24,696 bases of DNA from a virus. The notes beneath the pieces were generated by a model, which was not told where the DNA came from, did no database searches, and saw nothing but the letters and a program-made list of their open reading frames with translations. Shown here piece by piece: positions 3 to 24,605 of the stretch; position 1 is the stretch's first letter, and the number at the start of each line of letters is the position of its first letter. The position numbers and the translations under genes are program-made. The stretch spans positions 1 through 24,696 of the IMG/VR virus record IMGVR_UViG_3300025127_000261; one strand, given 5' to 3'.

Positions 3-617
3 GATCCAGAGGACGTAAAAGAGTTTAAGGCTATGACAGCCGAGCTTAGAGATACATGGACTAAGAAACAAGTATTTAGAACAGAAACAGAAATGAGAAT
101 GTCTGTTCTTCAAGATATGAAGTATCCAACTAAAGCTGCAAAGTATTGGCAGTGTGTTAGAGAACAAAACGTATTCTTAGAAAACTTAATGAGTTTATCA
201 TTTGATTGTAGAAGATCAGAGGCTAAAGTTAAATGGTTAGAAAAAAAGATTGAAACAGAACAAGACGAATATAAATTAGAGAAATACAAAATAGATTTAG
301 ATGAAGCTAGATATGGTTTAGCTAATATGCAACTTGTAGCTAGAGACAGAATGAGAGAAATTAAACTTTGGTCTACGTTAAAGAAAGAATTTGATGATGG
401 AACGTTTGATACTAAAGATGTCAACAGACACCAATTAGATTCTTATCATATGATTATGAAAAACAAAGCAGAGACATTAACATCAGGGTCTAGTCAACCT
501 GAAGTGTTTAATGTGTTAGGTCAATTAAAAAGTATAGAAAGAGTTAAAAAATCAGGAGAAATGATTTACAACAAGAAAGAACAATTAACACATGACCTTG
601 GAGCCAAAGACAAATAA
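3..617 (+). CDS. Coiled-coil phage protein of unknown function, 5' end outside the window
   Basis: The reading frame is open to the left edge: the codons before the first Met (position 33) read DPEDVKEFKA and have no stop, so the gene probably begins upstream. The 194 residues from that Met are mostly helical and highly charged, with a heptad-like stretch around residues 60-115 rich in Lys, Glu and Leu that suggests a coiled coil. There is no signal peptide, membrane segment or catalytic motif that I recognise. It lies ahead of accessory and tail genes, where head or packaging genes often sit in such phages, so a virion-assembly role or a terminase-small-subunit-like role is possible but not supported by any motif. 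The last 26 bases overlap the sulfotransferase gene in another frame. Confident as a gene; function unknown. Confidence 0.8.
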   Translation, partial: DPEDVKEFKAMTAELRDTWTKKQVFRTETEMRMSVLQDMKYPTKAAKYWQCVREQNVFLENLMSLSFDCRRSEAKVKWLEKKIETEQDEYKLEKYKIDLDEARYGLANMQLVARDRMREIKLWSTLKKEFDDGTFDTKDVNRHQLDSYHMIMKNKAETLTSGSSQPEVFNVLGQLKSIERVKKSGEMIYNKKEQLTHDLGAKDK

Positions 618-1386
618 ACAGCTTTTATTTTTAGTAGCAATGCCAAGGTCTGGTAATACCTTGTTTGCATCTATCATGAATCAAAACCCAGATATAGCAT
701 GCACACCTAATTCTATTACGTTAGAAATAATGAAAGATTTATTTTTATTAAAAGACACAGATGTATTTAAAAATTATCCAGATCATAAATCATTAGATAA
801 TGTATTAGATTCTGTTTATGACACTTATTATAAAGACTGGCCACAACGTATAATTATTGACCGAGGCCCTGTAATGACACCAGGTAATTTTTCACTCATG
901 CAAAAACATTTTAAACGACCTTTTAAATGTATTGTATTACTTAGAAATTTGATGGATGTGTTAGCGAGTTATATGCAATGGTACACAGAAAACCTTGATG
1001 CATTTCCTAATAGATACAATTGTAAAAACGATGAAGAAAAGCTAGGAATGATTATGAATAATAAAGGTGCTGTTGCTAAAGATTTAGAAGCAATTAAAAA
1101 CGCATATAAATATCCTGATATATGTCACTTTGTTAAGTATGATGATTTAGTTGCACAACCAGAACAAGAGTTAAAAAAAATATATCAGTTTATGGGTGAA
1201 CCTTATTTTAACCACAGATTTGATAATTTAGATCAAGTAAAAGTAAATGGATTATCTTATGATGACAAAATAGTTGGTAGTAATATGCACAAACTATTTG
1301 ATGGTCCTGTTAGAAAAGTGTATAACCCTTATATAGAAAAGATCCCAGAAAGGATTAGACAGAAATATGAACACATCAGATTTTAA
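592..1386 (+). CDS. Sulfotransferase family protein (PAPS-dependent type)
   Basis: This 264-residue protein has both PAPS-binding signatures of the sulfotransferase fold. The 5'-phosphosulfate loop is PRSGNTLF at residues 18-25, after a hydrophobic strand (LLFLVAM). The 3'-phosphate site is LLRNLMDVLASY at residues 116-127, with Arg118 and Ser126 as the expected contacts. The family moves sulfuryl groups from PAPS to hydroxyl or amino groups on sugars, lipids, proteins or small molecules; the substrate here cannot be read from sequence. There is no signal peptide, so it should act in the host cytoplasm. It overlaps the preceding gene by 26 bases and the following oxygenase gene by 20, so it belongs to one tightly packed unit with the four oxygenase-like genes. 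Similar genes are known in marine phages. The ATG at 592 leaves 17 residues before the loop, normal for the family. Confidence 0.85.
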   Translation: MTLEPKTNKQLLFLVAMPRSGNTLFASIMNQNPDIACTPNSITLEIMKDLFLLKDTDVFKNYPDHKSLDNVLDSVYDTYYKDWPQRIIIDRGPVMTPGNFSLMQKHFKRPFKCIVLLRNLMDVLASYMQWYTENLDAFPNRYNCKNDEEKLGMIMNNKGAVAKDLEAIKNAYKYPDICHFVKYDDLVAQPEQELKKIYQFMGEPYFNHRFDNLDQVKVNGLSYDDKIVGSNMHKLFDGPVRKVYNPYIEKIPERIRQKYEHIRF

Positions 1387-2023
1387 TTTTGTATTTTTAG
1401 GTCAGTCGGTATTACGATACCAAGTACCTTTAGATGTGTATAATATTATTAATCATATTTATGAAACTAAATATCCTGAATTAAAACCAGCTAACAAACA
1501 ATTAGTTGGTAAAATAGAAAAAGAACATAGTTTATTTTATAGTGGAGAAGACAGTCCGAAGATGACTAAACATAATCATTTACCTAATAATGTCTTAGAA
1601 TGGTTTGAACAAAGATTTAGACATTATTTAGAATGGAATAAAGTTAGAGAATACAATTTACATTTAAATTCTATATGGGTTAATACTATGTTTGAAAACG
1701 AGTACAATCCAGTGCACGTGCATCAAGGAACATTGTTTACAGGTTTATCAAGTGTAATGATTTTAAAATTACCAGAATCTTATGGTGTAGAATACTCTGC
1801 AGCAGACGCGCCACAAAATGGTAGACTACAAATTTTAGGATCAGCTAGTGGTCAGTTTGCAAACGTAGATTATCAACCAAATATTAAAGAAAGAGATTTT
1901 TATATATTTCCATATGATATGAGACACTGCGTATATCCATTTAATGGGCCAGGTATGAGACGAACACTAGCTGCAAATATGGATGTTCAATACGACTCAA
2001 TTAAAAACAGAGGAGTAAGTTAA
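1367..2023 (+). CDS. 2-oxoglutarate/Fe(II) oxygenase-like protein, first of four
   Basis: The 218-residue product resembles the phage and bacterial 2OG-Fe(II) oxygenase group whose metal site begins with an N-x-V/H-x-H pattern. Here NPVHVH (residues 114-119) gives candidate ligands His117 and His119, a later FPYDMRHCVYPF places His187 as the distal ligand, and Arg198/Arg199 could bind the 2-oxoglutarate carboxylate. Such enzymes usually hydroxylate an unactivated carbon with O2 and 2-oxoglutarate. The substrate is not deducible; virion proteins, nucleotides and host surface molecules are all open. The start overlaps the sulfotransferase gene by 20 bases, and the stop shares one base with the next ATG (TAATG), so the two are likely translationally coupled. 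The family call is good; actual enzyme activity is an inference. Confidence 0.75.
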   Translation: MNTSDFNFVFLGQSVLRYQVPLDVYNIINHIYETKYPELKPANKQLVGKIEKEHSLFYSGEDSPKMTKHNHLPNNVLEWFEQRFRHYLEWNKVREYNLHLNSIWVNTMFENEYNPVHVHQGTLFTGLSSVMILKLPESYGVEYSAADAPQNGRLQILGSASGQFANVDYQPNIKERDFYIFPYDMRHCVYPFNGPGMRRTLAANMDVQYDSIKNRGVS

Positions 2024-2616
2024 TGTACGAAAATAGACATATCACAGAACCTAAATGGAAGAGTTGGATTGTGCAAACAACAACACCGTTGTTTACACCG
2101 GACCAGTGTAGACAGATTATAGAATGTGGTAGAAGACAACCACCACAAAAAGCGCAAGTTGGTATGGGCAAACCTGGAGGTGGTACAGATACAAAGAAAA
2201 GAGTTACAACGATCAGTTGGATACCATTTAAAGAAATGGAACCCATGTATCGTGACCTTAATAATTTTATACAAAAAGCAAATGAAAATCATTTTGGTTT
2301 TGGAGATATACAAGTTACAGAGAACGCACAATTTACAGAATATCCAGAGGGTGGGTTTTATGATTGGCATATGGATTGTGATATAAATATGGCTCACGAA
2401 CCACCTGTTAGAAAAATATCAATGACTCTTTTGTTAAATGATCCGTCAGAATTTGAAGGAGGTCATTTAGAATTAGGTGGACCAGGTAAATTTGGAGAAC
2501 TTAAACAAGGTCATGCAATTATATTTGCATCTTTTATAAATCATAGAGTACAACCTGTTACACGTGGTCTTAGACAATCGTTAGTTGTTTGGTTTGGAGG
2601 CAAACCTTTTAGATGA
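2023..2616 (+). CDS. Prolyl-4-hydroxylase-like 2OG-Fe(II) oxygenase, second of four
   Basis: This is the clearest oxygenase of the cassette. The 197-residue protein has the full double-stranded beta-helix signature: H-x-D as WHMDCD (His116, Asp118), distal His174 in FINHRVQPVTRG, and Arg184 ten residues later as the 2-oxoglutarate salt-bridge residue, followed by SLVVWFGG. This arrangement is typical of the P4Hc/PiuC-like group, which hydroxylates protein side chains or small molecules. A glycine-rich GGHLELGG stretch (residues 146-153) between the two halves of the metal site also fits. No signal peptide is present, so it acts in the cytoplasm. It begins on the last base of the previous stop (TAATG) and ends in an ATGA overlap with the next gene. 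It is not a close copy of its neighbours, so the cassette is not a simple tandem duplication. Confidence 0.88.
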   Translation: MYENRHITEPKWKSWIVQTTTPLFTPDQCRQIIECGRRQPPQKAQVGMGKPGGGTDTKKRVTTISWIPFKEMEPMYRDLNNFIQKANENHFGFGDIQVTENAQFTEYPEGGFYDWHMDCDINMAHEPPVRKISMTLLLNDPSEFEGGHLELGGPGKFGELKQGHAIIFASFINHRVQPVTRGLRQSLVVWFGGKPFR

Positions 2617-3194
2617 TTAAAGAACAATTTTTTCCAACAACTATATACGGTAAAGATGTAAAATTAAATAATCAACTTTTTGCTAACGAAATTGTTGAGT
2701 GGTCTAAAAAAGATCCTGGTGTTAAAAAAACAAATCGTAATGGTTGGCATTCAACGACAGAGATGCATAAGATGCCTGTGTTTGAACCTTTAGTTAAAGA
2801 ATTATTTTTAATGATGCAGGATATATGGCAAGAAGAATGGTTAGATAGAGAACCGGTATTAGGTAATATGTGGGCTAATATAAATCCACCAGGAGGATCT
2901 AATGCTCCACACATACATCCTAATAGTTTATTTAGCGGAGTATACTATATAAAAGCACCCGAAAATTCTGGTGATTTAGTTTGTAATGATCCTAGACCAG
3001 GTGTGCAATTAAATATGCCAACAAGAAAAAAAGGTAAACCGTCTAAACATTTATGGAGAGAAGTACATTTAAAACCAGTAGAAGGTAGAATTATAATGTT
3101 TCCTTTTTATCTTTGGCATAGTGTTGAACCTAATATATCTAATGATATAAGAATATCAGTAAGTTTTAATTTTATACAACATGGCTTTCAATAA
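2613..3194 (+). CDS. 2OG-Fe(II) oxygenase-like protein of the H-x-H-P-N type, third of four
   Basis: The 193-residue protein matches the pattern of the putative 2OG-Fe(II) oxygenase family with an APHIHPNSLFSGVYYI core at residues 98-113. His100 and His102 are candidate metal ligands, FPFYLWHSVEPN supplies distal His169, and Arg180 in DIRISVSFN fits the 2-oxoglutarate site. A GDLVCNDPRP segment (residues 120-129) after the core is also characteristic. It belongs to the same broad group as the first oxygenase gene but is only distantly similar to it. The ATG overlaps the previous stop as ATGA, which implies re-initiation by the same ribosomes, and the 3' end overlaps the fourth oxygenase gene by 14 bases. 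Substrate unknown. Confidence 0.82.
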   Translation: MIKEQFFPTTIYGKDVKLNNQLFANEIVEWSKKDPGVKKTNRNGWHSTTEMHKMPVFEPLVKELFLMMQDIWQEEWLDREPVLGNMWANINPPGGSNAPHIHPNSLFSGVYYIKAPENSGDLVCNDPRPGVQLNMPTRKKGKPSKHLWREVHLKPVEGRIIMFPFYLWHSVEPNISNDIRISVSFNFIQHGFQ

Positions 3195-3828
3195 ATATCA
3201 CGTAATTAAAAATGCAGTTAGCTACGAGTTAGCTAACTTTGTGTTTAACTATTTTCTCTTAAAACGAGATGCAGTCGCTTGGATGTATCAAAATAATATT
3301 ACTTATGATAATGGTATGCTTGGAACATGGACCGATCAACAGATACCAAATACATATTCACATTATGCAGATTTTGCTATGGAAACTTTACTTGTTAAAA
3401 TGTTACCAGTTATGGCTAGAGAAACAGGACTTAATCTTATACCTACATATTCATACGCTAGAATATATAAAAAAGGTGATGAATTAAAAAGACACAAAGA
3501 TAGACCCTCTTGTGAGATATCTACTACATTAAACTTAGGTGGAGATCCCTGGCCCATATTTATCGATGGTACAGGGGCTGACAGCGTCATAGATGAGTAT
3601 AAAAACATACATAAGCCCAATGCACCCAAAGGCACTAAAGTCTTGCTTGAAGTAGGTGATATGCTAGTATATAGTGGTTGTGAATTAGAGCATTGGAGAG
3701 AACCTTTTGAAGGGGATGTCTGCGGACAAGTCTTTCTTCATTATAACCATGTGAATGGTCCTTTTGCTGAAAAGAATAGGTTCGACAGAAGGCCAATGTT
3801 AGGTGTTCCACCAATACGGAATACATAA
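3181..3828 (+). CDS. 2OG-Fe(II) oxygenase-like protein, fourth of four, without an obvious 2OG-binding arginine
   Basis: The 215-residue product shows H-x-D as RHKDRP (His105, Asp107), a following STTLNLGGDPWPIF strand pair, and a distal histidine in ELEHWREPF (His171). This is the layout of phage-type 2OG oxygenases often annotated in marine phages. The residue about twelve positions after the distal histidine, where an Arg or Lys normally holds 2-oxoglutarate, is Gln183 in CGQVFLHYN. The cosubstrate may be held differently (Arg173 is a candidate) or the protein may be non-canonical. The ATG at 3181 overlaps the preceding gene by 14 bases. A 14-base gap then separates it from the large tail gene, the first non-overlapping junction in this block, so the accessory cassette probably ends here. 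Confidence 0.75.
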   Translation: MAFNKYHVIKNAVSYELANFVFNYFLLKRDAVAWMYQNNITYDNGMLGTWTDQQIPNTYSHYADFAMETLLVKMLPVMARETGLNLIPTYSYARIYKKGDELKRHKDRPSCEISTTLNLGGDPWPIFIDGTGADSVIDEYKNIHKPNAPKGTKVLLEVGDMLVYSGCELEHWREPFEGDVCGQVFLHYNHVNGPFAEKNRFDRRPMLGVPPIRNT

Positions 3829-3842
3829 TAAAATGAGGTTAT

Positions 3843-6020
3843 ATGCTACAAAAAATAGGGTTTCAACCTGGAATTAATAAACAAATTACAGCTACTGGAG
3901 CAGAATCACAATGGATAGACTGTGATAATGTTAGATTTAGATATGGCACTCCAGAAAAAATAGGTGGTTGGAAACAACTAGGGGACGATGCACTTACAGG
4001 TGCGGGACGTGGTCTTCATCATTTTGTAAATAGTAAAGCAAGAAAATACGCTATCATTGGTACAAACAGAATTTTATATGCATACTCAGGTGGTGTGTTC
4101 TATGACATACATCCAATTAAAACCACAACAACTCTTACAAGTGCATTTAGCACGACTAACGGATCAGCTGTTGTTACAATAACTTTCAGTGGAGATCACG
4201 GCATATCCGCACAAGATATTATTTTATTAGATAATTTTAGTGCAATAACTAATTCAAACTTTGCTGCTGCAGATTTTAATGATAAAAAATTTATGGTAAC
4301 AACTGTACCAACAAGCTCAACTATTACAATTACAATGCCATCAAACGAGTCAGGATCTGGTGCAACTACATCAGGTGGTATTAGAGTGCAACACTACTAT
4401 CCTGTTGGACCAGCTGTACAAGCAAAAGGTTTTGGTTGGTCTCTTGGATCTTGGGGTGGTGAGGTAGCTGGTGAACCCGCAACGACATTAACAAATGGTA
4501 TTACTGACACTGTTACAACAGGAATAATATTGGGAGATGTATCACAGTTTCCAGACTCAGGTACAAATTTTATAAAAATAGATAATGAAGAAATATCTTA
4601 CACAGGTATATCTGGTAATGAACTTACAGGTGTTACTAGAGAAGTTAGAGGTACAACAAAAGCTGCACACAGTGGAGGTGCAACTGTTACAAGCACAACT
4701 AACTTTGTAGCATGGGGTGAGGCTGCATCAGGAGACTTAGTCTTAGAACCCGGTATGTGGTCACTAGATAATTTTGGTGACAAAGCAATATGTTTAATAC
4801 ATGATAGTGCTGTTTTTTCTTGGAACTCTGCAGCAACAAATGCAGAAACAACAAGAGCTGCAATTATTACTGGAGCACCTACAGCATCAAGACATATGTT
4901 AGTATCTACTCCGGATAGACACTTAGTATTTTTTGGAACAGAAACAACTATTGGAACACCGTCAACACAAGACGATATGTTTGTAAGATTCTCTGATCAA
5001 GAGGATATAAACACATACACACCCACAGCAACTAATACCGCTGGTACACAGAGACTTGCTGACGGATCACAGATCAGAGGAGCAATTAGAGGTAGAGATG
5101 CAATCTATGTCTGGACTGACACAGCATTATTTACACAACGTTTTGTTGGATCTCCTTTTACTTTTGCGTTTGCACAGGTTGGAACTAACTGTGGACTTGT
5201 TGGACAGAATGCATGTGTAGAGGTTGATGGTTCTGCATACTGGATGTCAGAGAATGGTTTTTTTAGATATGCTGGTAAATTAGAATCACTACCATGTTTA
5301 GTTGAAGATTTTGTTTATGATAATATAAATTTAGAGTCTGGTAACCAGATGGTATCTGCAGGGTTAAATAATTTGTTTGGTGAGGTTATATGGTTTTATC
5401 CAACTACAGGATCCTCTGTTGTTAATAGACAAGTTACTTATAATTATTTTGATTCATCACCACAACGACCAGTGTGGACTGTTGGAACATTAGCTCGAAC
5501 TATGTGGGAGGATTCTGCGGTATTTGGTAAACCACATGCAACAGAATATAGTGCAGGTAATGATTTATCTTTTGATGTTGTAGGCAACACAGAAGGTAGA
5601 ACAATATACTATGAACACGAAACAGGAACTGATCAAGTTCAAGGGGGTACGACTACAGCAATTGTTGCAAGCATAGAATCAGGAGATTTTGATATTACTC
5701 AGAGAATAATAGGTAATCAACAAACTGGGATAGCAGACACTAGGGGAGATGGAGAATTTATAATGAAGATAAGAAGATTTGTACCTGACTTTATCTCACA
5801 AACTGGATCAACAAGAGTAACTTTTAATTTAAGAGATTTTCCAAATGATACACAAAGTAGCTCACCATTAGGTCCTTTTGATGTAACATCTAGCACAAAA
5901 AAAGTAGATACAAGAGCTCGTGCCCGTGCTATAGCTTTAAAAATATCTAATACAACAACTAATCAAAGTTGGAAGTTAGGAACATTTAGATTAGATATAC
6001 AACCAGACGGGAGACGATAA
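3843..6020 (+). CDS. Tail hub / packaged-DNA stabilisation protein-like (P22 gp10-like) with inserted beta modules
   Basis: This 725-residue protein starts with a conserved sequence (GFQPGINKQITATGAESQW, then NVRFRYGTPEKIGGW) that I recognise from short-tailed marine phages, where it is annotated as a structural or DNA-stabilising protein. Repeating strand patterns through the rest (for example YAIIGTNRILYAYSGG, RHLVFFGTE, IYVWTDTALFTQRF, AYWMSENGFFRYAG) suggest a beta-propeller-like body, as in P22 gp10, which closes the portal after packaging. Two segments look like inserted beta-sandwich modules: about residues 98-182 and 218-284, the second with the common phage signature IDNEEISYTGISGNELTGVTR. 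At 725 residues it is much longer than P22 gp10 (about 470), partly because of these inserts. A GAGG Shine-Dalgarno at 3835-3838 precedes the ATG. It ends in a TAATG overlap with the next gene. Structural role likely; exact gp10 equivalence unproven. Confidence 0.7.
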   Translation: MLQKIGFQPGINKQITATGAESQWIDCDNVRFRYGTPEKIGGWKQLGDDALTGAGRGLHHFVNSKARKYAIIGTNRILYAYSGGVFYDIHPIKTTTTLTSAFSTTNGSAVVTITFSGDHGISAQDIILLDNFSAITNSNFAAADFNDKKFMVTTVPTSSTITITMPSNESGSGATTSGGIRVQHYYPVGPAVQAKGFGWSLGSWGGEVAGEPATTLTNGITDTVTTGIILGDVSQFPDSGTNFIKIDNEEISYTGISGNELTGVTREVRGTTKAAHSGGATVTSTTNFVAWGEAASGDLVLEPGMWSLDNFGDKAICLIHDSAVFSWNSAATNAETTRAAIITGAPTASRHMLVSTPDRHLVFFGTETTIGTPSTQDDMFVRFSDQEDINTYTPTATNTAGTQRLADGSQIRGAIRGRDAIYVWTDTALFTQRFVGSPFTFAFAQVGTNCGLVGQNACVEVDGSAYWMSENGFFRYAGKLESLPCLVEDFVYDNINLESGNQMVSAGLNNLFGEVIWFYPTTGSSVVNRQVTYNYFDSSPQRPVWTVGTLARTMWEDSAVFGKPHATEYSAGNDLSFDVVGNTEGRTIYYEHETGTDQVQGGTTTAIVASIESGDFDITQRIIGNQQTGIADTRGDGEFIMKIRRFVPDFISQTGSTRVTFNLRDFPNDTQSSSPLGPFDVTSSTKKVDTRARARAIALKISNTTTNQSWKLGTFRLDIQPDGRR

Positions 6021-6748
6021 TGTCAATAATGGATATTTATGGAATAGACCCATATGCAGGTCCAGGTGGAATAGATGCGGCTTTACCTAATTTTGATCTG
6101 TCAATACCTCCAGGTGTTCCAGGTATGACAGCTCCAGCGATTAATTTTAAAAATGCTCCTGTTAATTTTATGTTAAGAGAAAATAATCCCAGAGTGTTTG
6201 ATCCTGCAGTTAATCTTAAAAACTTTGCTCAAAATTTTCCTAGTAATGTTAAATCTGGAGTTACATCTGTAACAGATAAAAGTATTGATTTAGGAAAAGC
6301 AGCTCTTAGCGGAATAATATCTTTAGCAACAGGTATACCATTTGCAGGTAATGTTTTAAGTGGAATAACAAGTCAATTTGAAAATAGACCTTTGGGCGCT
6401 CCAGTTATAGATGAATTTGGAAATGTTTATGATCCAGAAGAGTTAAATAAATTAAATGCATTAGGTGGATATTATACTGATCCTGCAAGATCAGCTAGAA
6501 GAAGAAGTAAAAGAATTGCTAGAATGTTAGAAAGACAAAAACTCGGTAAAAAAATATCTCTTCAAAATTTAGCTAAACTCCAGGCTCAGGAAAGAGCACA
6601 AGAAAAAGCTCAAAGAGCAGCCATAGATGCTATGTTTGCTAGAGGAGAGGGTGGAACAGGACAAGATTTTACTGGTGGTAGATTTGATGGTGCAGGTAGC
6701 AGAGGAGAATATGATGCGGACCCAACAGGATTTTCAGGAAGTAGTTAA
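6020..6748 (+). CDS. Putative virion protein with hydrophobic centre and glycine-rich tail
   Basis: I do not recognise a named family. The 242 residues fall into zones: a Pro/Gly/Asn-rich N-terminal part (1-60), a hydrophobic, small-residue stretch at about 95-115 (LSGIISLATGIPFAG) that could insert in or cross a membrane, a very basic patch at 158-178 (RSARRRSKRIARML), an Ala/Gln/Glu helix likely to be coiled coil (180-205), and a Gly/Asp/Ser-rich disordered end (208-242). This is typical of minor virion or ejected proteins of podoviruses. It is joined to the tail gene before and the 54-codon gene after by one-base TAATG overlaps, so it is part of the late structural operon. Confidence 0.75.
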   Translation: MSIMDIYGIDPYAGPGGIDAALPNFDLSIPPGVPGMTAPAINFKNAPVNFMLRENNPRVFDPAVNLKNFAQNFPSNVKSGVTSVTDKSIDLGKAALSGIISLATGIPFAGNVLSGITSQFENRPLGAPVIDEFGNVYDPEELNKLNALGGYYTDPARSARRRSKRIARMLERQKLGKKISLQNLAKLQAQERAQEKAQRAAIDAMFARGEGGTGQDFTGGRFDGAGSRGEYDADPTGFSGSS

Positions 6749-6912
6749 TGGCTAAGATAGTACAAGTATTAACAAGACCGGCAACAGAATATGATTTATC
6801 TACAGCAGAGGCACAGGTAAGAGATCTTGATGCGATTGTAGAGAAATTAAACACAACGTTTCAAGAAGAACTAAAAGAGGAGGTAGAAGCATTTAACTTC
6901 TTTCTACAATAA
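6748..6912 (+). CDS. Small 54-residue protein in the virion gene chain, function unknown
   Basis: This short gene fills the space between two structural genes exactly: its ATG shares the last base of the previous stop, and its TAA shares its last base with the next ATG (TAATG at both ends). The product begins MAKIVQVLTRPATEYDLSTA and ends in an acidic helix (EELKEEVEAFNFFLQ). Residues 20-50 show heptad-like hydrophobic spacing (V, L, I, V, L), suggesting a short coiled coil. No cysteines, membrane helix or known motif are present. The perfect fit into the overlap chain and the good codon composition support it as real despite the length. A minor structural or chaperone role would fit its place but is only inferred. 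Confidence 0.72.
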   Translation: MAKIVQVLTRPATEYDLSTAEAQVRDLDAIVEKLNTTFQEELKEEVEAFNFFLQ

Positions 6913-7253
6913 TGGCTAATAGTTTTATAAATAAAAAAGTAGATTTAACGACAACAGATCTTACTACACTATACACAGTGCCTAGTTTTAAGACAGCTGT
7001 TGTAAAATCATTAATTGTATCCGAGGACGCTGGATCAGGGAGCACAATAACAATAACTTTAGTAAATGCTAGTAGTGCTATATTTAACTTATTCAAAGAC
7101 AAAGCCATAGCATCTAAAGCAACCACAGAACTTTTAACTCAACCTTTGGTTATGGAAGAGGGTGAGATACTAAAAGTACAAGCCGCTGACGCGAACGAGC
7201 TGCACGTCATAGCTTCTATATTAGAAATACAGCCGCGAGAGGTAACAACATAA
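6912..7253 (+). CDS. Small beta-rich virion-associated protein
   Basis: The 113-residue protein is dominated by alternating polar and hydrophobic residues (TLYTVPSF, AVVKSLIVSE, STITITLVNA, ILKVQAADANELHVIASILEI), which suggests an all-beta sandwich. Small proteins of this type are common beside tail genes in short-tailed marine phages and are usually annotated as virion proteins of unknown function. It has no signal peptide and no cysteine. It is embedded in the TAATG chain at both ends, so it should be made with its neighbours. A decoration or tail-accessory role is plausible. The structural role is inferred from fold propensity and context only. Confidence 0.75.
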   Translation: MANSFINKKVDLTTTDLTTLYTVPSFKTAVVKSLIVSEDAGSGSTITITLVNASSAIFNLFKDKAIASKATTELLTQPLVMEEGEILKVQAADANELHVIASILEIQPREVTT

Positions 7254-7432
7254 TGAAAGATCTACCAGTAATAGAACCAAAAGAGATTATAACAACAATA
7301 ACAAATATGAAGACAGGTGAGGAATATAAGGATGATGCTGAATGGAAAGCCAAAGGTATACCAGAATCTGACATAAGAAAAGATGTCAGAGTTATCATGC
7401 CAAGCCTTGATTTATTTGGAGAAACAAAATAA
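7253..7432 (+). CDS. Small 59-residue conserved-type phage protein, function unknown
   Basis: The gene starts on the last base of the previous stop (TAATG) and encodes 59 residues beginning MKDLPVIEPKEIITTITNMK and ending MPSLDLFGETK. The composition is ordinary, without membrane segment or cysteines. The GEEYKDDAEWKAKG stretch and the following basic-acidic run look like a small globular alpha/beta protein. I have an impression of similar short proteins at this place in marine phage genomes, ending in a SLDLFG-like motif, but cannot verify it. Eleven bases without a clear Shine-Dalgarno separate it from the next gene. Confidence 0.7.
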   Translation: MKDLPVIEPKEIITTITNMKTGEEYKDDAEWKAKGIPESDIRKDVRVIMPSLDLFGETK

Positions 7433-7443
7433 GATAGTAAACT

Positions 7444-8673
7444 ATGGCAATTTCAAGATCACAGATGGAAAGACAACTTAGAAACATGGGTGGAATCATG
7501 AGTCTAGAAGACCCAAGACAAGGATACTTTTTAGGTAAACTTGTAAGAAAAGCTAAAAAAGCTGTAAAGAAAGTTGTTAAAAGTCCTATAGGTAAAGCTG
7601 CTATATTAGCAGGAGGAGCTGGTCTTTTAGGTGGAGTTGGTCCATTTGCCGGTTTAAGAACTTCTGGATTAGGAAAATTATTAATGGGTAGTAAATTATC
7701 TCCTGGTTTTATTGGACCCGTATCTGGAGGACAAACAGGAATATTACAAAAATTTTTTCTTAAAGACCCTAGAGGTGGTTTTTCATTAGGAAATTTATTA
7801 GGTAAAGGATTAACTAATAAAGGATTAGCTGCAGGTATCGGAGGCGTATCTGGACTTGCTGGATTGTTAGCTGCACAAGAAGCAGAGGACGAAGATAGTA
7901 TTGATATTTCAGATATTGACAGAGGTGAGGGATTAAACATTCTAGATATTGTTGCACGTGCAAGAAAAAATGATCCTGAGTTTAGATTCTTACCACCAGT
8001 AGATTTTCAAAACCTAGCAGAAGGTGGTGGTGTCGGATCATTAGCCATGAACAAAGAAAATGTAAAACAAAAATTTGTATCAGATGAAGCTGGAGCAATA
8101 CCTAAAAAAGGTGGTGGGGTAACACCTGATGATATGGGTAAATTAAAGCAAAGTGATTTTGATAGTGAGGAAGATTATCAGAGATATCTAAGACAATTAA
8201 ATAGAAAAGCTAGAGGTGGAATTACAGAACTAGATGCAGGAGCACCTGATATAAAATTAAAAGGAGATGTAAAACCAGAAAACATGAAAATGGCTCGTTC
8301 TAATATGATGAATAAAAGAAGAAATGCTTTAGATGCTGCCTTTGATGCTGCTATAGACGAATATATGAGTATCAATGCTGTTGATGTTGTTCCAATGGAT
8401 ATTCAAAATGCTATATTTAAATCTCTTCAAAGAAAAATGTTAGGTAGAGCTGAAGGAGGACTCATGGACCTTGGAGGCATGGAGATGGATCTCAGAGGCG
8501 GTGGATTTGTACCACTAGGGGCCAAAGAAAAGGCTGATGATGTACCAGCAAGATTAAGTAAAAATGAATTTGTAATGACCGCTGATGCTGTAAGAGCAGC
8601 AGGTGGAGGAAGTGTTGATAAGGGAGCAGATAAGATGTATAACCTTATGAAAAATTTGGAGAGTAGAGTATAA
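7444..8673 (+). CDS. Glycine-rich internal virion protein with C-terminal EFVMTADAVR domain
   Basis: This is a 409-residue protein. Near the N-terminus is a GGIMS motif (16-20) followed by RQGY (25-28). Next comes a strongly basic helix (KLVRKAKKAVKKVVKS, 32-47) and a Gly/Ala-rich hydrophobic stretch (about 49-70) that could interact with membranes. The middle is disordered, with repeated E/R-GG-G/I/L segments. The last 45 residues, beginning DDVPARLSKNEFVMTADAVR, form a motif I know from the ends of phage tail, tape-measure and internal proteins. This suggests a virion protein, perhaps one ejected with DNA, but biochemical function is unknown. It ends with a TAATG overlap onto the next gene. 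A related N-terminal motif occurs in the protein starting at 9559. Confidence 0.75.
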   Translation: MAISRSQMERQLRNMGGIMSLEDPRQGYFLGKLVRKAKKAVKKVVKSPIGKAAILAGGAGLLGGVGPFAGLRTSGLGKLLMGSKLSPGFIGPVSGGQTGILQKFFLKDPRGGFSLGNLLGKGLTNKGLAAGIGGVSGLAGLLAAQEAEDEDSIDISDIDRGEGLNILDIVARARKNDPEFRFLPPVDFQNLAEGGGVGSLAMNKENVKQKFVSDEAGAIPKKGGGVTPDDMGKLKQSDFDSEEDYQRYLRQLNRKARGGITELDAGAPDIKLKGDVKPENMKMARSNMMNKRRNALDAAFDAAIDEYMSINAVDVVPMDIQNAIFKSLQRKMLGRAEGGLMDLGGMEMDLRGGGFVPLGAKEKADDVPARLSKNEFVMTADAVRAAGGGSVDKGADKMYNLMKNLESRV

Positions 8674-9557
8674 TGGCAGTAACAGAAACACGTAATTTAC
8701 CCGCACAGTTTATAGAAGATCTTGGTAAAGATTATGCTAAACAACTGGCAGCAACTACAGCTATACCTGTAGATACTTCTAAATTTGCACCACAAGTTGC
8801 AGCACAAGATGCATTACAAACACGAGCTGCAACATTAGCAGGAACAGGTGTTGGATCTTTTCAACCATTTATACAAGCTGCGCAACAACAAGCAACAGCC
8901 GCAGGTACAACTTTAGGTGGCATAGCTGGTTTAACAGGTGCACCAACAGCAGCACAGACGGCAGCATTTACATCACCATTTCAACAACAAGTTATTGATA
9001 CAACATTAGCTGAGTTTGATAAACAAAGAGCTATCAACGAACAAAACATCAGGGATCAACAAGCACAATTAGGTGCATTAGGTGCAGGTAGATCAGGTGT
9101 ACAATTATCAGAGTTTCAATCACAATCAGGAAGAGATAGAGCTGCACTAGAAGCACAATTAAGACAACAAGGTTTTCAACAAGCACAAGCAGCTAGACAA
9201 CAAGATATTCAAAATAGATTTGGTTTAGCTCAGGCACAATCAGGTTTAGGTGCGTTTCAAACTGGATTAGCTACACAGGTTCCACAATTACAAAGAGCAG
9301 ATATCTCTACACTTGGTCAGGTAGGTGCAGCACAACAAGCACAAAGACAAGCTGTATTAGATGCACAAAGACAAGCTGCAAGAACCGAAGCATTTGAACC
9401 ATTAGATAGATTAGGTTTCTTTGGTCAAGGTGTAACTGGATTAATGGGTGGTTACCCTGCACAGTATCAATTCCAATCAACACCACCAGCATCACCATTA
9501 CAAACTGCACTAGGATTAGGTACAGGACTAGCAGGAATATTCGGAGCATTGAAGTAA
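8673..9557 (+). CDS. Gln/Ala-rich helical protein, probable internal or ejected virion protein
   Basis: The 294-residue product is extremely rich in Gln and Ala, especially from residue 95 to 250 (for example RQQGFQQAQAARQQDIQ and AQRQAVLDAQRQAARTE). It should form long helices or coiled coils. The C-terminal part (about 275-294) is Gly/Leu-rich and hydrophobic. This composition is typical of podoviral internal core or ejection proteins. The repeats are at the level of amino-acid bias rather than exact DNA repeats. The gene starts in a TAATG overlap with the previous one and is followed after one base by the next ATG, so the three internal-protein genes are co-translated. No enzyme motif is visible. 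Confidence 0.75.
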   Translation: MAVTETRNLPAQFIEDLGKDYAKQLAATTAIPVDTSKFAPQVAAQDALQTRAATLAGTGVGSFQPFIQAAQQQATAAGTTLGGIAGLTGAPTAAQTAAFTSPFQQQVIDTTLAEFDKQRAINEQNIRDQQAQLGALGAGRSGVQLSEFQSQSGRDRAALEAQLRQQGFQQAQAARQQDIQNRFGLAQAQSGLGAFQTGLATQVPQLQRADISTLGQVGAAQQAQRQAVLDAQRQAARTEAFEPLDRLGFFGQGVTGLMGGYPAQYQFQSTPPASPLQTALGLGTGLAGIFGALK

Positions 9558-9558
9558 C

Positions 9559-10677
9559 ATGATGAATCGTATTTTAAAAAGACCTATGTTTAGAATGGGT
9601 GGTCGAAGCGATGATGGTATTATGTCTGTTAGACGTGGATATCAAGAGGGTGATCAAGTCAAAGAACCAGGGTATTTTGATAAATCTGGTTTAGGTATTT
9701 TATTAAAGGGTATAGGAACTGAAGCTAGAAAAGCAGGAGCTGGTATATATGATTTAGGTGGAGTTCCCTTAAATGCAGCATCTAGATTTTTTTTAGGTGA
9801 AAATCCTGGTTTTTCAGGAGCTAGGTTTTTTGGTTTAGGTGAAGAAGAAGGTATTGATCCAGATAAAGCAATGTTTTTAGGAATGACTACAGAAGCTAAA
9901 CCAAGTGAAATGTTTGCAGGTAAATCTTTAGATTTAGGGACTTCTGCTGAAGCATCAGAAACAGATACAGACACAAATAAAGATAAAAAAACAATCATAA
10001 CAAATAAAGATGGAGCTACGCAAAAACTTTCTGACAACGATCTTAAAACTATGTATGAAGATCTATTACCATTATTTAAATCAGAATTATCAGCAGACGA
10101 TGATGAATTAAAAAGACAAAAATATTTAGAGTTAGCTAAGTTTGGTGCTAATCTTTTAGGACAGCCTGGTGGTGACTTAATTGGTTCTGTAGGTAGAGCG
10201 GCAGCACCTAGTATTGAAGGACTAACAAGAGTTGCTGAAACTAGAAGAAGAGCTAACGAAGCAGCTAAATCTTTAGCATTAGAGGCAGCGTTAAAACAAG
10301 CTGACCCTGGCACAATTATGAAACAAGTTAGAGATATTATGAGATTAAATCCAGATATAAGTCAAAAAGATGCTTTGGCTCAAGTAATGTCTACAGGCTC
10401 TGCTACAAGAGAAAGAACATCAGAAGATAGAATAGGGACATATGCTGAAGGATTATTAGAGGATGATGTTGTAGGAAGCAAAACAGCAGCTAGAGTTGCG
10501 GCTGAGGCAATTGAAGAATCAGGAAAAGGTTTAGGCACATTTAAAAAAGATCCTGGTGCAGGAGATAGAAAAGAAGGAGAATACTATATCCTTAAGGATG
10601 GTAGAATAGGTAAATACAAAGGTAAAAATAAAAAAGGTGAAGATGATTTTGCATCACCTGGTGACGATGATTTTTAA
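9559..10677 (+). CDS. Putative internal virion protein with N-terminal GIMS...RRGY motif
   Basis: This 372-residue protein opens with MMNRILKRPMFRMGG, then GIMS (20-23) and RRGY (25-28), closely matching the N-terminal motif of the protein at 7444-8673. The region to about 120 is Gly/Phe-rich (GIYDLGGVPLNAASRFFLG). A Thr/Asp/Lys-rich hydrophilic linker follows (about 133-155), then a long charged helical domain (165-290), and finally a Gly/Lys/Asp-rich, probably disordered tail. There is no recognised catalytic motif. Two Met codons in tandem (9559 and 9562) could serve as start; the nearest Shine-Dalgarno-like GGAG is at 9543-9546, slightly far. The place between other internal-type proteins supports a virion role. 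Confidence 0.72.
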   Translation: MMNRILKRPMFRMGGRSDDGIMSVRRGYQEGDQVKEPGYFDKSGLGILLKGIGTEARKAGAGIYDLGGVPLNAASRFFLGENPGFSGARFFGLGEEEGIDPDKAMFLGMTTEAKPSEMFAGKSLDLGTSAEASETDTDTNKDKKTIITNKDGATQKLSDNDLKTMYEDLLPLFKSELSADDDELKRQKYLELAKFGANLLGQPGGDLIGSVGRAAAPSIEGLTRVAETRRRANEAAKSLALEAALKQADPGTIMKQVRDIMRLNPDISQKDALAQVMSTGSATRERTSEDRIGTYAEGLLEDDVVGSKTAARVAAEAIEESGKGLGTFKKDPGAGDRKEGEYYILKDGRIGKYKGKNKKGEDDFASPGDDDF

Positions 10678-10686: not shown

Positions 10687-13600
10687 ATGGGATTTCAATT
10701 ATCTCCTGAAGAAGAAAAAACAGAAAAGAAGAAAGAACAAGACGTAGGATTTTTTGAATCTGCATTAGCTGGTGTTGCAACTGGTTTGTGGAATATACCA
10801 AAAGGTTTTGTATCTTTGGGTGCAGAACTATTTGATGTAGTCGCGGATACTAATACAGCTAAAGACGTTGAAGAATGGTTTGATAATGTAAACCCATTCG
10901 ATGATGAAGCTGAAGCAAGAACAATTGGTAAGATTACAACAGCATTAGCATCTATTGGACCTTTAGCAATTAAAGGTGCACAAGTTGGAACAAGAGCAGC
11001 TTTGTTAGCAAGAAAAGCACTACAAGCAAAACAACAAGGTAAATATTTAAGTTTAGCAAAAGTTGGATCTAAAATTATGGGGCCAACTACAGGAGCAATA
11101 GTTGGTTCAGGCGTTGGTGAAGCAATTGTTGCTGACGAGGATATTGGAACATTTGCTGATATTGCTAAAGGCACTTCGTTAGAACCTTTTGCAATAACCA
11201 TGATGGATCGGGAAACTAAAGAAGGTAGATCAGAAGCATTTAGAAGATTAAAAAATAGATTAAAATTTGGAACTGAGGGAGCTTTATTTAATCTTGCATT
11301 AGTAGGAGCTGGTAAAGGTATACAACAATTAAGAAAGCCATCAGAGACAGGATTACTAGAATATGCAGATAGCCCATTAAAAAGAAAATTACAAAAATAT
11401 GGTTTGTTTGGTTTAAAACCAGAGGGCACTGGAACTAAATACACATTTGAAGCTAGACGTTTTGGTTTAGATAATATTAGAGCAACAGAGTTTGCTGCCA
11501 GTAAATCAGTGCAAGAATTAGACACAGCTATAAAAGAATTAGGTGACGTAGTTAAAAGTAATTATTATACAGCACCTAAAGGATTAAAAGAAACTGTTAG
11601 CTCACAAGAAAAATTTTTAACAGATTTATATGATGTGTTAAGACCTGTGGATAAAGGATCAGAATCTTTATTAACTGTTACTAGAAGAAAAGGAGGCAAA
11701 GATATTATATCTAAACAAATAGATGATGTTGTAGCTTATAAAAATATCAACGATGGTATTAAAGAGTTAACAGAACAAACTATTAAATTAGGGGATGACA
11801 GAACTAAAAATTTAATTACAGAACAACAGTTTAGAGAACAGAGTCAATCTCTCTTAAAACAATCTGATGTATTAAATAAACAACTTAATGACATAACTAA
11901 AAGAAGACCTAATATTGAACAGTTAATCAAAAAAACTGAAAAAGGGTTTTTTAAGAAAAAAAACTACAGTAATACAAAAGAATTTAATAGTATTTTAGAA
12001 AAAGTTAGAAAAGCCGGTGGTAATACAGAAAAGTTAGAAAATGCAATTATTAACTTTAGAATGTCAGTTGATAATATGTCAGTTAGACTTTTACAAAGAA
12101 GGATGCCTGGAGACGTTGCTGATGAAATAAAAGATAATTTAGGTAAATATTTAAATGCTCAATATAAACAATTTGAAATGTCGGGTCCTTTACAAAAGTA
12201 TAAACCAACAGCAGAACAGATTAATAATGCAACTGAATTATTAAAAGCAAATAAAATAAGAGGTTATCAAGAATTAAATAAAACAGCACCAACAAAAGAA
12301 ATTATAGAAAAATTTAGTAAAGAATCAACAGACGAGGTAAACCAATTTTTAAAAATAAAGTCTGTAGATGAAGTAGATGTTATCAATTTAAAAAACGAAA
12401 CAGGAGATGTTTTAAATAAAGCCACAAAAGCAGAGGTAGATTCTATTGTTATAAAAGATAACGTATTAAAAAATAAGGTATTAGAGCCATGGCAAGAAGA
12501 ATTAGCAGGTTTAATAAAAGATCCTTCATATAGTTTTTATACTACTGTTAGTAAACAAGGTCATTTAAATTACACTTTAAAATATTTAGATGATATAGGA
12601 AAAGCAGGATCACAAGGCCCTAATAAATTTATATTTAACGCAGATGAATTATCCTCAGCACAAAAATCAAATCCACTACAGTTTAAATTAGTTGAACCAG
12701 GAAGTTCTAGAGTTTCATCAGGTTTAGAGGGTAAATATATTAGAACACCTTTTTATGATTCTGTATTTGACACAACCAGTAACTGGTTAAATAGAAGTGG
12801 TGTTGGAACTTTTTATAAGTATGCAGTGCTTGCACCGAAAGCTGCATCACAAATTGCAAAAACAATTTTATCTCCACTAACACATGTTAGAAACTTTATT
12901 AGTGCAGGAGCTTTTGTGTCTGCTAATGGAGCAGCTTTTCCTAATTATGGAGATATATCTGTTTTGTTACCAAAATCTTTAGGAGGTCAAGGTGTATTTA
13001 AACAAGCCTATGATCTTACAGGTAAAAGAATATTAGGCACTATGACAAAAGCAGATGATGCTTTATACGAAAGATTATTAAAAGTAGGAGTCGTAGACAG
13101 TCAGGTTCAGGTAGGTGAATCCAAAAGACTTTTAAAAGATATATTAAAAAATCCAGCTGCTGCAGACTCAAGAGTTTATACAGATTTATCAAATAACTTA
13201 AAAAATAAATTATTAAAAGTTTATGGGAAAACTCAAGATGCGTATGTAGCAGAGGATGATTTTTGGAAAGTAATTAATTGGAATTTAGAGAGAAATAGAT
13301 ATTCTAAATTAGCTAGTAATTTAAATGTTACTAAAGATAATTATAAAAAAATATTGGCTGAAGAGTCTACAAAAGGTAAATATTTTAGAAAACTTGTTCA
13401 AAGAGATGAATATGCAGCAGAAAGTTTTGATAATTTTTTAGATGAAATAGCGGGTAATATAACTAGAAATAGAGTGCCTAATTATGGATATGTTGGTAGA
13501 ACTGCAAAGGCTTTAAGACAATCTCCGTTTGGAAATTTTATAGCTTTTCCTTTAGAAATATTAAGAACAGGTAATAATATTATGGCAGGATCTATTGATG

Positions 13601-14955
13601 ATATTACTGCAGGTATTGGTAAAGGAACATTTGCAAATCCAGAAATACCAGATCTTGTTAATATGGGTTTAAAAAGATTAACTAGTTTTGGCATAACAGT
13701 GGGTGGTGTGCCGTACGCTTTAGCAGAAACATTTAAAGCTAAAAATGATGTTAGTGATGAAGAGATGAATGCTTTAAGAAGAATCGTGCCTGAGTGGTCT
13801 CAAAACTCTACACTATTACCAACAGGTAGAGATGAAAAAGGTTATATAAAATACATAGATTTTAGTTATTCAAATGCTTATGATACTTTAATAAGACCAT
13901 TTAATTCTGTGATAAATTCTCTTGCTCAAGGAGAAGCAACAAAAGATTCTTTAATGAAATCTTTAGGCACAGGAATGGCTGATAGTTTGTATGAAATACT
14001 AGAACCGTTCGCATCTGAATCTATTTATACAGAAGCATTATTAGACTCTACAGTTAGAAGAGGTATTGGGAGAGGTGGAAGAAGAGTATGGTCACCTGAA
14101 GATGATTTTGGTGTAAGAGCTTTTAAAGGTATCACTCATGTTGCAAACTCATTAATGCCTGGATCAATATCACAATTTAAAAGATTAGAAAGAGCAACAA
14201 GAGGAAAAGCAGATAAAAAATATGGTCAAACATTTGAACTACAAGATGAATTACCAGGATTATTTGGTTTTAGAAGTATACAATCAGATCCTGAAAGATC
14301 TTTAAAATATATGACAACACGTTTTGGATCTAGACTTAAAAAAGCAGACAACTTATTTATATCTCCATTACTTAGAGGTGGAAGAGTTACACCACAAGAT
14401 ATATTAAGTTCTTATAAATATTCAGAAGCTAGAAGATTTGCTATTTTAAAAGAAATGTACCAAGATATTGAAGCTGCTAGAACATTAGGTATGTCTAACT
14501 CTAAAATTAGAAGAGAAATACAAAAAAGAAAAGGTATTAAAAAAACAGTAGTTAATGATTTATTAAAAGGTGCTTACACGCCAAAAGAACCCAGTGATTT
14601 TTTTATAGATAGAATAAGAAAAATTAATAGAGATTTAAATGAAAAAGAAGGAGTAGATACTCCAAATCCTTTTACTATAGCTAGACCCTTTCTTAGAAAA
14701 ATAATTGTTGAAAATAGAAAATTAAATCTATTAGAAGACAACCCTGTATTTCCTAGTTTTGAAATACCACAACCACAAGCAACGCAACAAGAATCACGGA
14801 TCACGACACCACCTGTAAATACAGTCCCCATAAGTCCACAAGTAGTGACTGCCACTAATCAAAATGCTGGCTTGAGTTTGCCACCTAATTTTGCTAATTT
14901 ATCGACAGCAGAGAAATTAAAAACTTTAAATGATTTAGGAATAAATATTAACTAA
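10687..14955 (+). CDS. Very large internal virion / DNA-ejection protein
   Basis: At 1422 residues this is the largest gene in the window. The N-terminal part has an acidic-basic leader and then Gly/Ala-rich amphipathic or hydrophobic segments (about residues 75-150, for example ITTALASIGPLAIKGAQVG and GPTTGAIVGSGVGEAIVA) that could enter a membrane. Residues about 270-620 are a Lys/Glu-rich helical region, probably coiled coil. A middle domain has hydrophobic KTILSPLTHVRNFISAGAFVSANGAAFP. The end is Pro/Gln-rich and then has LSTAEKLKTLNDLGIN. Size, composition and position match the large ejection protein of podoviruses (the role of T7 gp16). I do not see a clear lytic transglycosylase motif or protease triad, so enzymatic function is not claimed. 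It has an excellent Shine-Dalgarno, and the holin-like gene follows after two bases. Confidence 0.72.
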   Translation: MGFQLSPEEEKTEKKKEQDVGFFESALAGVATGLWNIPKGFVSLGAELFDVVADTNTAKDVEEWFDNVNPFDDEAEARTIGKITTALASIGPLAIKGAQVGTRAALLARKALQAKQQGKYLSLAKVGSKIMGPTTGAIVGSGVGEAIVADEDIGTFADIAKGTSLEPFAITMMDRETKEGRSEAFRRLKNRLKFGTEGALFNLALVGAGKGIQQLRKPSETGLLEYADSPLKRKLQKYGLFGLKPEGTGTKYTFEARRFGLDNIRATEFAASKSVQELDTAIKELGDVVKSNYYTAPKGLKETVSSQEKFLTDLYDVLRPVDKGSESLLTVTRRKGGKDIISKQIDDVVAYKNINDGIKELTEQTIKLGDDRTKNLITEQQFREQSQSLLKQSDVLNKQLNDITKRRPNIEQLIKKTEKGFFKKKNYSNTKEFNSILEKVRKAGGNTEKLENAIINFRMSVDNMSVRLLQRRMPGDVADEIKDNLGKYLNAQYKQFEMSGPLQKYKPTAEQINNATELLKANKIRGYQELNKTAPTKEIIEKFSKESTDEVNQFLKIKSVDEVDVINLKNETGDVLNKATKAEVDSIVIKDNVLKNKVLEPWQEELAGLIKDPSYSFYTTVSKQGHLNYTLKYLDDIGKAGSQGPNKFIFNADELSSAQKSNPLQFKLVEPGSSRVSSGLEGKYIRTPFYDSVFDTTSNWLNRSGVGTFYKYAVLAPKAASQIAKTILSPLTHVRNFISAGAFVSANGAAFPNYGDISVLLPKSLGGQGVFKQAYDLTGKRILGTMTKADDALYERLLKVGVVDSQVQVGESKRLLKDILKNPAAADSRVYTDLSNNLKNKLLKVYGKTQDAYVAEDDFWKVINWNLERNRYSKLASNLNVTKDNYKKILAEESTKGKYFRKLVQRDEYAAESFDNFLDEIAGNITRNRVPNYGYVGRTAKALRQSPFGNFIAFPLEILRTGNNIMAGSIDDITAGIGKGTFANPEIPDLVNMGLKRLTSFGITVGGVPYALAETFKAKNDVSDEEMNALRRIVPEWSQNSTLLPTGRDEKGYIKYIDFSYSNAYDTLIRPFNSVINSLAQGEATKDSLMKSLGTGMADSLYEILEPFASESIYTEALLDSTVRRGIGRGGRRVWSPEDDFGVRAFKGITHVANSLMPGSISQFKRLERATRGKADKKYGQTFELQDELPGLFGFRSIQSDPERSLKYMTTRFGSRLKKADNLFISPLLRGGRVTPQDILSSYKYSEARRFAILKEMYQDIEAARTLGMSNSKIRREIQKRKGIKKTVVNDLLKGAYTPKEPSDFFIDRIRKINRDLNEKEGVDTPNPFTIARPFLRKIIVENRKLNLLEDNPVFPSFEIPQPQATQQESRITTPPVNTVPISPQVVTATNQNAGLSLPPNFANLSTAEKLKTLNDLGININ

Positions 14956-23954: not shown

Positions 23955-24605
23955 ATGGCTTATTTAAATGCAAACATTCCTGTAGAGTATGCACAGATAA
24001 GAAGGGAATATCTTTATGATCTTAAAAAACATCATGGAGAAGTTGAAGACTGTATTATCTTTGGTGTTAGCTGTATTACAGGTCGTGCTCTTTTATTTCA
24101 TGCTATCATGGAAAATGGTGCAATCTTTTATCGTCTCCCAATTACGGCTTTTATTCAACGTGGTTTTCAACCGGAAGCTGTTCCATCCCGTAGACTTGAT
24201 GAATTACAGCTTTGGAATTCTTTTAGTTATTATCCTGCTATTACTAGTTGGGATATTTTAGAATCACAATCAGGTAAATACATAGGTAAAGATAAAAAAT
24301 GGCATTGGGGTAAATATTTATTTACTGTTGACTTTGCACACCCAGAGCCTAATATACTCGACACTGATCATTCAGAGATTCCGCACGAACATAAGTGCGC
24401 ACACGTACTTGCATTAAATGATGGCAACTACGCAGCACAACCTAACAACAGATTAATTTGGGATATACCGTCGTTTACGGTAAAAGACGAAACACCTGAT
24501 TGGAAGGTACAAACTAATTACTGGAACGTAGAAGATACACAACAGTGGCGAACAGAAGACACTGACAATTTCTTTTACGAGATAGAGGAGAAAAAAAATG
24601 ATTAA
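23955..24605 (+). CDS. Conserved phage protein of unknown function after DNA polymerase
   Basis: The 216-residue protein starts MAYLNANIPVEYAQIRREYL and has a well-ordered look, with CIIFGVSCITGRALLFHAI, FYRLPITAFIQRGF and SRRLDELQLWNSFSYYPAITSWD. A similar sequence is frequent in marine and other podovirus-like phages directly next to replication genes, without known function. Aromatic residues (Trp, Tyr, Phe) are abundant, with a His/Glu/Asp-rich stretch around residues 130-150 (FAHPEPNILDTDHSEIPHEHKCAH) that might bind metal; this is speculation. The C-terminus is strongly acidic. A TGAGGA ribosome site six bases before the ATG supports the start. The last eight bases overlap the small gene that follows. 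Confidence 0.85.
   Translation: MAYLNANIPVEYAQIRREYLYDLKKHHGEVEDCIIFGVSCITGRALLFHAIMENGAIFYRLPITAFIQRGFQPEAVPSRRLDELQLWNSFSYYPAITSWDILESQSGKYIGKDKKWHWGKYLFTVDFAHPEPNILDTDHSEIPHEHKCAHVLALNDGNYAAQPNNRLIWDIPSFTVKDETPDWKVQTNYWNVEDTQQWRTEDTDNFFYEIEEKKND
24585..24590 (+). promoter_or_regulatory. Shine-Dalgarno for a 25-residue peptide gene
   Basis: GAGGAG is followed by seven A and then ATG at 24598, an ideal spacing. It lies inside the end of the preceding gene and is good evidence that the following very short reading frame is translated. Confidence 0.75.

Follow-up and report, generated by a model that had tools for sequence, protein, structure and literature searches.

We analyzed a window of 24,696 bases of viral DNA, the complete IMG/VR record IMGVR_UViG_3300025127_000261, in which a cassette of five enzyme genes lies close to one end. 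The first gene encodes a predicted sulfotransferase (ST) of 264 amino acids (aa; 592..1386) and the following four, A (1367..2023), B (2023..2616), C (2613..3194) and D (3181..3828), encode 2-oxoglutarate (2OG) oxygenase-like proteins. All five open reading frames (ORFs) read along the + strand, and neighbors overlap by 20, 1, 4 and 14 nt at the ST/A, A/B, B/C and C/D junctions. The constant upstream neighbor is a coiled-coil-like gene (pre; 3..617, + strand), which is cut by the contig end, shows a weak phrog_1409 match and overlaps ST by its last 26 nt. The constant downstream landmark, outside the enzyme set, is a gene (3843..6020, + strand) for a virion protein similar to the P22 gp10 'stabilization' protein (gp10-like). 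An initial annotation of this DNA had described five overlapping genes, one for a sulfotransferase using 3´-phosphoadenosine 5´-phosphosulfate (PAPS) and four for oxygenase-like proteins of distinct subtypes (two H-x-H, one prolyl-hydroxylase-like and one phage H-x-D). All of the ORFs were found where they had been placed, and the subtypes agreed with the Pfam and PHROGs matches and the motifs.

The gene order is not peculiar to this record. The full order, pre-ST-A-B-C-D-gp10-like, was found in 89 fetched IMG/VR loci, in line with the expectation that the five genes would be linked in related phages, and the full order lacking ST, pre-A-B-C-D-gp10-like, was found in another 40, a few of the counted loci sitting together on one contig. 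The overlaps also were constant, with medians across the IMG/VR loci of 26 (pre/ST), 20 (ST/A), 1 (A/B), 4 (B/C) and 14 nt (C/D). Median dN/dS values were 0.11-0.25 for the cassette genes, and the catalytic residues were essentially invariant among 131 ST, 185 A, 234 B, 202 C and 243 D copies. Given the recurring order, the low dN/dS and the invariant catalytic residues, the arrangement is not due to chance, and the five genes are real, intact and under purifying selection.

Proteins of the cassette were assigned to families using Pfam, PHROGs and NCBIfam. ST scored above the Pfam cut-offs for both Sulfotransfer_3 (PF13469; E 1.5e-14, 55.2 bits versus a cut-off of 27) and Sulfotransfer_1 (PF00685; E 2.7e-13, 50.3 versus 22), and its only NCBIfam match, far under the cut-off, was to the nodulation-factor sulfotransferase NoeE. 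The predicted 5´-phosphosulfate loop (PRSGNT, residues 18-23) is invariant in the 131 copies except for S20 (128 copies), and the predicted 3´-phosphate residues R118 and S126 are invariant throughout. By family and PAPS-site residues, ST is a PAPS-type sulfotransferase with predicted sulfate transfer activity. When Foldseek matches to the ST structure model (pLDDT 92) were re-scored, entries for tyrosylprotein sulfotransferases (TPSTs) took the first seven places, with Z scores of 16.0-16.8 over 231-242 residues, compared to 14.9 for the CurM domain and at most 12.2 for heparan and cytosolic sulfotransferases; Foldseek itself also put TPST1 first. TPST1/2 thus are the nearest solved folds to the modeled ST and have the PAPS loop in common with it, but identity is only 14-16%, and in an ungapped sequence alignment Asn40 and Ile42 of ST occupy the positions of the TPST Glu-x-Arg, which we take to be the catalytic residues. 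Because of this difference, ST is not classed as a TPST despite the predicted similarity in fold.

Genes A and C both matched PF13759 (2OG-FeII_Oxy_5; cut-off 27 bits), A with E 6e-8 (33.4 bits) and C with E 1e-26 (93.6 bits), the latter also being TIGR02466-like. In a profile comparison the two were only 26% identical across 92 aligned columns; they are far apart within the family and, as had been proposed, are not tandem copies. The usual HxD/E...H iron site was not seen in either protein. Instead, essentially all 185 A and 202 C copies have HxH...H (H117, H119 and H187 in A, which also has RR198-199; H100, H102 and H169 in C, followed by R180 and S182 of an RxS motif), a predicted metal site. 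The C profile matched the solved structures 3bvc and 2rg4, and an H-x-H is found at the same place in 3bvc. Since a search of the PDB with the gene A profile gave no solved relative, the assignment of A was based on Pfam and the profile match to C. B matched PF13640 above the cut-off (E 2e-13), and its profile matched PKHD structures (E about 1e-15) and prolyl 4-hydroxylase (P4H). Its HxD...H...RxS motif is nearly without variation, with H116, D118, H174 and R184 in 234/234 copies and S186 in 233. B thus resembles bacterial P4H and PKHD-type hydroxylases such as PiuC and YbiX, though the cassette oxygenases score far beneath the NCBIfam equivalog cut-offs. Together with D, these proteins are four different 2OG oxygenases, as judged by family and motif.

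Database names suggest a different identity for D. The protein matched phrog_2954 (E 6e-49) and no Pfam family, and homologues in 154 phage records are in many cases named ferrochelatase. A D-type 'ferrochelatase' beside oxygenases has been taken as evidence of heme metabolism (PMC9599517), and phrog_2954 'ferrochelatase' has been reported as enriched in seasonal viruses (PMC11561400). These names and reports favor an explanation in which the cassette consists of auxiliary metabolic genes, with D as a ferrochelatase acting alongside iron-dependent oxygenases in host heme or iron metabolism. The properties of D argue strongly against this. No ferrochelatase family model matched window D in Pfam or NCBIfam, and none in NCBIfam matched among 39 members of the D family. 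The AlphaFold model of D (mean pLDDT 93) has a double-stranded beta-helix fold that matched prolyl hydroxylases, including P4H and PHD2, and also further 2OG oxygenases, with a Foldseek E of 3e-8 for P4H and Z scores of 14-16. A ferrochelatase fold was absent among the structural matches listed for D, and those read were all of the oxygenase type, which is not a formal exclusion; searching the PDB by sequence, with either D itself or a D profile as the query, yielded no useful match. The HxD...H triad (H105, D107 and H171) is present in 243/243 copies. R94 and R173 are likewise conserved, and an invariant Q183 lies in the region of the usual 2OG-binding Arg/Lys, about 10 residues past the second His. 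We therefore rejected a ferrochelatase role and consider the heme explanation very improbable. By all of the tests made here, including the predicted fold, the family name is a misnomer, and D is an oxygenase-fold protein that putatively uses 2OG, with Q183 in the region where the canonical Arg/Lys would be expected. This correction touches the published claims of ferrochelatase and oxygenase linkage and of seasonal enrichment, as the name has spread across many phage records and two published analyses of auxiliary metabolic genes (PMC9599517; PMC11561400).

The sulfotransferase behaves as an exchangeable part of the cassette. The slot 3´ of pre is occupied by ST in 117 loci and by A in 51. 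On a FastTree phylogeny of B, C and D combined, the presence of ST switches 20 times in total, at least 11 of these changes falling on well-supported branches, counts that could be inflated by recombination or mis-assembly. At loci lacking ST, A opens at the corresponding start codon inside the 3´ end of pre such that the overlap is preserved, and translational coupling is retained with and without ST. ST therefore is a plug-in that comes and goes while A-D stay constant. The initial annotation had raised the possibility that the sulfotransferase needs an acceptor group made by hydroxylation. As A-D persist through gain and loss of ST, they are independent of it and a role in making the acceptor is not needed; in addition, a recognizable oxygenase was found within 3 kb of ST in only 2/30 loci of the S-SRM01 type. 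Stepwise coupling of hydroxylation and sulfation thus is unsupported.

Outside the window group, ST is associated with beta-propeller genes. In the annotated phage collection, ST homologues were found in S-SKS1, S-SRM01 and the single-cell viruses AG-345-E08, AG-345-L05 and AG-345-O18, and IMG/VR relatives were fetched for three of these five lineages. The function of phage sulfotransferases has been called unclear, and the same family is found in OM43 phages (PMC10580990). The S-SKS1 and S-SRM01 types are 23-30% identical to window ST and belong to other phage families with mostly different oxygenase sets. Propellers were sought by phmmer in the fetched loci, and ST adjoined a Kelch or RCC1 propeller gene in 79/82 copies across the five lineages. 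For an ORF picked at random from these loci, the mean probability of adjacency was 0.16-0.48 per lineage, with a product of 0.002 over the five. The neighbor is Kelch in S-SKS1 (PF24681 above the cut-off) and, with weaker matches, in AG-345-L05 and AG-345-O18, while it is RCC1 in S-SRM01 and AG-345-E08, the propellers being confirmed by Pfam. The AG-345-O18 propeller gave no match in a PDB search and rests on a weak Kelch_4 match. In the window group, Kelch genes were present in 32/33 ST loci versus 19/57 loci lacking ST, and the difference also was seen with cultured phages and loci fetched with the gp10-like gene only (3/4 versus 4/42, p 0.009). We found no paper describing a link between ST and propellers, and a tblastn search of the phage collection with a Kelch protein gave no matches, perhaps due to the low-complexity filter. 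ST also appeared to go with Kelch length class at the neighboring gene (raw Fisher p 6e-5), but independent pairs on the tree were too few and this association is not claimed. Through this link, the propellers become a concrete substrate candidate for phage sulfotransferases.

A few other features were noted at these loci. In S-SKS1, a B-type oxygenase seems to be split between ORFs of 92 and 142 aa that overlap (13122-13783 of its locus), possibly due to a frameshift. In AG-345-O18, Kelch and ST have a DUF6445 (PF20043) oxygenase-like gene next to them (729-1349), and a similar ORF is present in AG-345-L05 (14480-15100). In the IMG/VR locus 3300037963_002006, the slot before the gp10-like gene (2612-9752) holds a larger set of some nine ORFs, which include ST and a methyltransferase-like ORF; oxygenase-like motifs are seen in many of the nine.

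The propeller association bears on an alternative in which the substrate of ST is a glycan, on the tail or in host lipopolysaccharide, instead of an amino-acid side chain, and in which some of the oxygenases act on sugars. The cassette would then change surface glycans, with a block to superinfection as one possible purpose. Near ST in S-SRM01 and AG-345-O18 there are genes of glycosyltransferase, nucleotide-sugar epimerase or heptose type, a glycosyltransferase gene lies 3´ of the gp10-like gene in the pelagiphages HTVC023P and HTVC027P, and both the lack of conserved TPST catalytic residues and NoeE as the sole NCBIfam match would fit a glycan substrate. However, it is propeller genes and not glycan genes that ST directly adjoins in the five lineages, the predicted ST fold is closer to TPST than to the heparan sulfotransferases, and a lytic phage would have little to gain from altering its host's surface late in infection. 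We consider a glycan target unlikely.

The surroundings of the cassette point to tail adhesins. As the window is the complete record, we read the upstream side from relatives. The closest of these has a pre protein 99% identical to that of the window, and in relatives with upstream sequence, one to four Kelch-like proteins and a tail-spike-like protein are encoded directly upstream of pre, placing the cassette between tail-adhesin genes and the gp10-like gene. The Kelch-like proteins have a common N-terminal motif, a weak Kelch_1 match and a match to the PDB Kelch protein 4yy8 (E 0.008), while the protein preceding them has tail-spike matches. Clusters of non-orthologous oxygenases with a D-type gene near tail genes are already known from pelagiphages, namely HTVC008M gp068-072, HTVC023P gp65-67 and HTVC033P gp58-61. 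The B-C-D order is common to the window, HTVC023P and HTVC033P, and a B-C-D core accompanies PF21722 glycine-rich tail proteins in HTVC023P, 023Pt_psg01 and HTVC033P, in contrast to Kelch in the window group. ST was not present in the stretches read of these three phages, and neither ST nor gene A was found in those of HTVC008M, HTVC023P and HTVC033P. In HTVC008M, a T4-like myovirus, D and four oxygenases lie 3´ of Mtd_N/Peptidase_S74 and glycine-rich genes; elsewhere in this genome (16199-18158 of the locus), a PF13759-like oxygenase gene and one carrying the annotation tryptophan halogenase (PrnA) overlap in the interval that separates the two terminase subunit genes. Fe(II)-dependent oxygenases and tail fibers also have been listed among the commonest genes of metaviromic islands, for which a role in host recognition was inferred, but without a defined cassette, sulfotransferase or propeller link being described (PMC3909814), and a survey of pelagiphage oxygenase clusters treats D as a heme enzyme and does not mention sulfotransferases (PMC9599517). 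Judged from gene content, the oxygenase core accompanies differing kinds of tail adhesin across phage families. New here are the plug-in behavior of ST, its link to propellers in several lineages and the correction of D.

This setting also helps in weighing two other possible targets. The oxygenases might hydroxylate a host protein such as a translation factor for takeover of the cell, with ST having a separate host target, since in Foldseek D was matched best by the Pseudomonas P4H, alone and complexed with EF-Tu. The match is generic, however, with 13-16% identity and many 2OG oxygenases tying, and the tail-adhesin location in both podo- and myoviruses along with the varying cassette content fit a variable virion target better, making a host-protein target improbable. 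Alternatively, the genes might form a small-molecule or nucleic-acid tailoring pathway merely located in the structural region, given that the 2OG oxygenase superfamily also has metabolite and nucleic-acid substrates and that HTVC023P-type genomes carry DNA-hypermodification genes (PMC9599517). B, C and D instead resemble PKHD/P4H and TIGR02466 proteins, TET-like matches of D were weak (E 0.35), the genes are not beside replication genes and the cassette has no other biosynthetic genes. We found little support for DNA modification, and a tailoring pathway of this kind seems a poor candidate overall.

We favor a model in which the cassette, located in the structural region, serves to tailor the tail-tip adhesins of the phage itself, with sulfation as an option, and assign it a probability of roughly 0.55. 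A tail-adhesin target is favored by the position of the genes, the reuse of B-C-D by tail genes, the link between ST and propellers, the TPST-like fold of ST, the likeness of D and B to hydroxylases, the coupling and the selection. In this model, the cassette likely would be expressed late, and A-D would hydroxylate newly made adhesins encoded just upstream, Kelch propellers here and glycine-rich tail proteins in relatives. Where ST is present and host PAPS is available, ST would sulfate exposed groups of the propeller adhesin. Hydroxylation would be the constant part and sulfation the option for propeller-type adhesins, and the altered surface chemistry of the receptor-binding tip could change host recognition. 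The earlier proposal of a structural-region modification cassette, with a virion target favored, is strengthened by the tail-adhesin linkage that recurs across several phage families. We suggest more tentatively that marine phages might sulfate, and hydroxylate, their own beta-propeller receptor-binding tail proteins by means of a virus-encoded protein-sulfation system, with exchangeable sulfation tracking propeller type and host PAPS. If the enzymes do modify adhesins, host recognition in this group would hinge on enzyme-made chemistry that cannot be read from the genome sequence alone.

Several observations weigh against a tail-adhesin target. The cassette is known from genes, neighborhoods and predicted structures, and linkage to adhesins is no proof of substrate, as exchanged genes might simply collect here at a hotspot. 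The Kelch queries were picked after the neighbors of ST had been seen, and the loci and contigs inside one lineage are related to each other. Kelch genes are carried by the 19 loci without ST mentioned above, locus 3300037963_002006 has ST without a recognized propeller (the sole such ST locus of the group), glycan genes are found near ST in two lineages and, as noted, N40/I42 stand in place of the TPST Glu-x-Arg. In addition, we found no common sulfation acceptor motif in the Kelch proteins compared, and PAPS supply in SAR11, the probable host group, is doubtful.

With respect to the acceptor, among the Tyr residues in the Kelch proteins of the window lineage, 25% come directly after Asp/Glu, versus 6-7% in S and D. 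This tyrosine motif revealed no shared acceptor site, given that its occurrence in short Kelch proteins is alike at loci with and without ST (p 0.90) and that it arises from the Kelch repeat itself, the S-SKS1 Kelch repeats having Phe there. For PAPS, a check for phage-encoded supply revealed no adenosine 5´-phosphosulfate (APS) kinase in eight partial phage contigs. Among 147 SAR11-family genomes, which are incomplete, a full-length APS-kinase match was found in about 26, other matches being partial, such as a 136-aa P-loop protein. Matches to the sulfotransferase family over the cut-off were found in 58 of the 147, many of them lying in frames some 520 codons long. The SAR11 strain HTCC1062 has been reported to be without assimilatory sulfate reduction, while a cysC orthologue and cysQ seem to be included in a table of the same paper (PMC5069961). 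One hypothesis is that uneven PAPS supply among hosts could be behind the gain and loss of ST.

The identity of the phage was deduced from the gp10-like gene and its flanks. The predicted protein is 44-48% identical to those of 023Pt_psg01 and HTVC027P, with most or all of its length covered, the HTVC023P genome matches the gene in part, and the flanking gene order is common to the window and all three phages. These similarities indicate that the window is a fragment of a relative of the HTVC023P-type pelagiphages. Relatives of the gp10-like gene were found on contigs in two SAR11 single-cell assemblies, which makes a SAR11-type host probable for this phage; the remaining matches are metagenome bins, for which contamination is possible. 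Elsewhere in the window, a 216-aa protein encoded 3´ of the DNA polymerase gene (23955-24605) matched phrog_3704 'ferredoxin' (E 6e-72).

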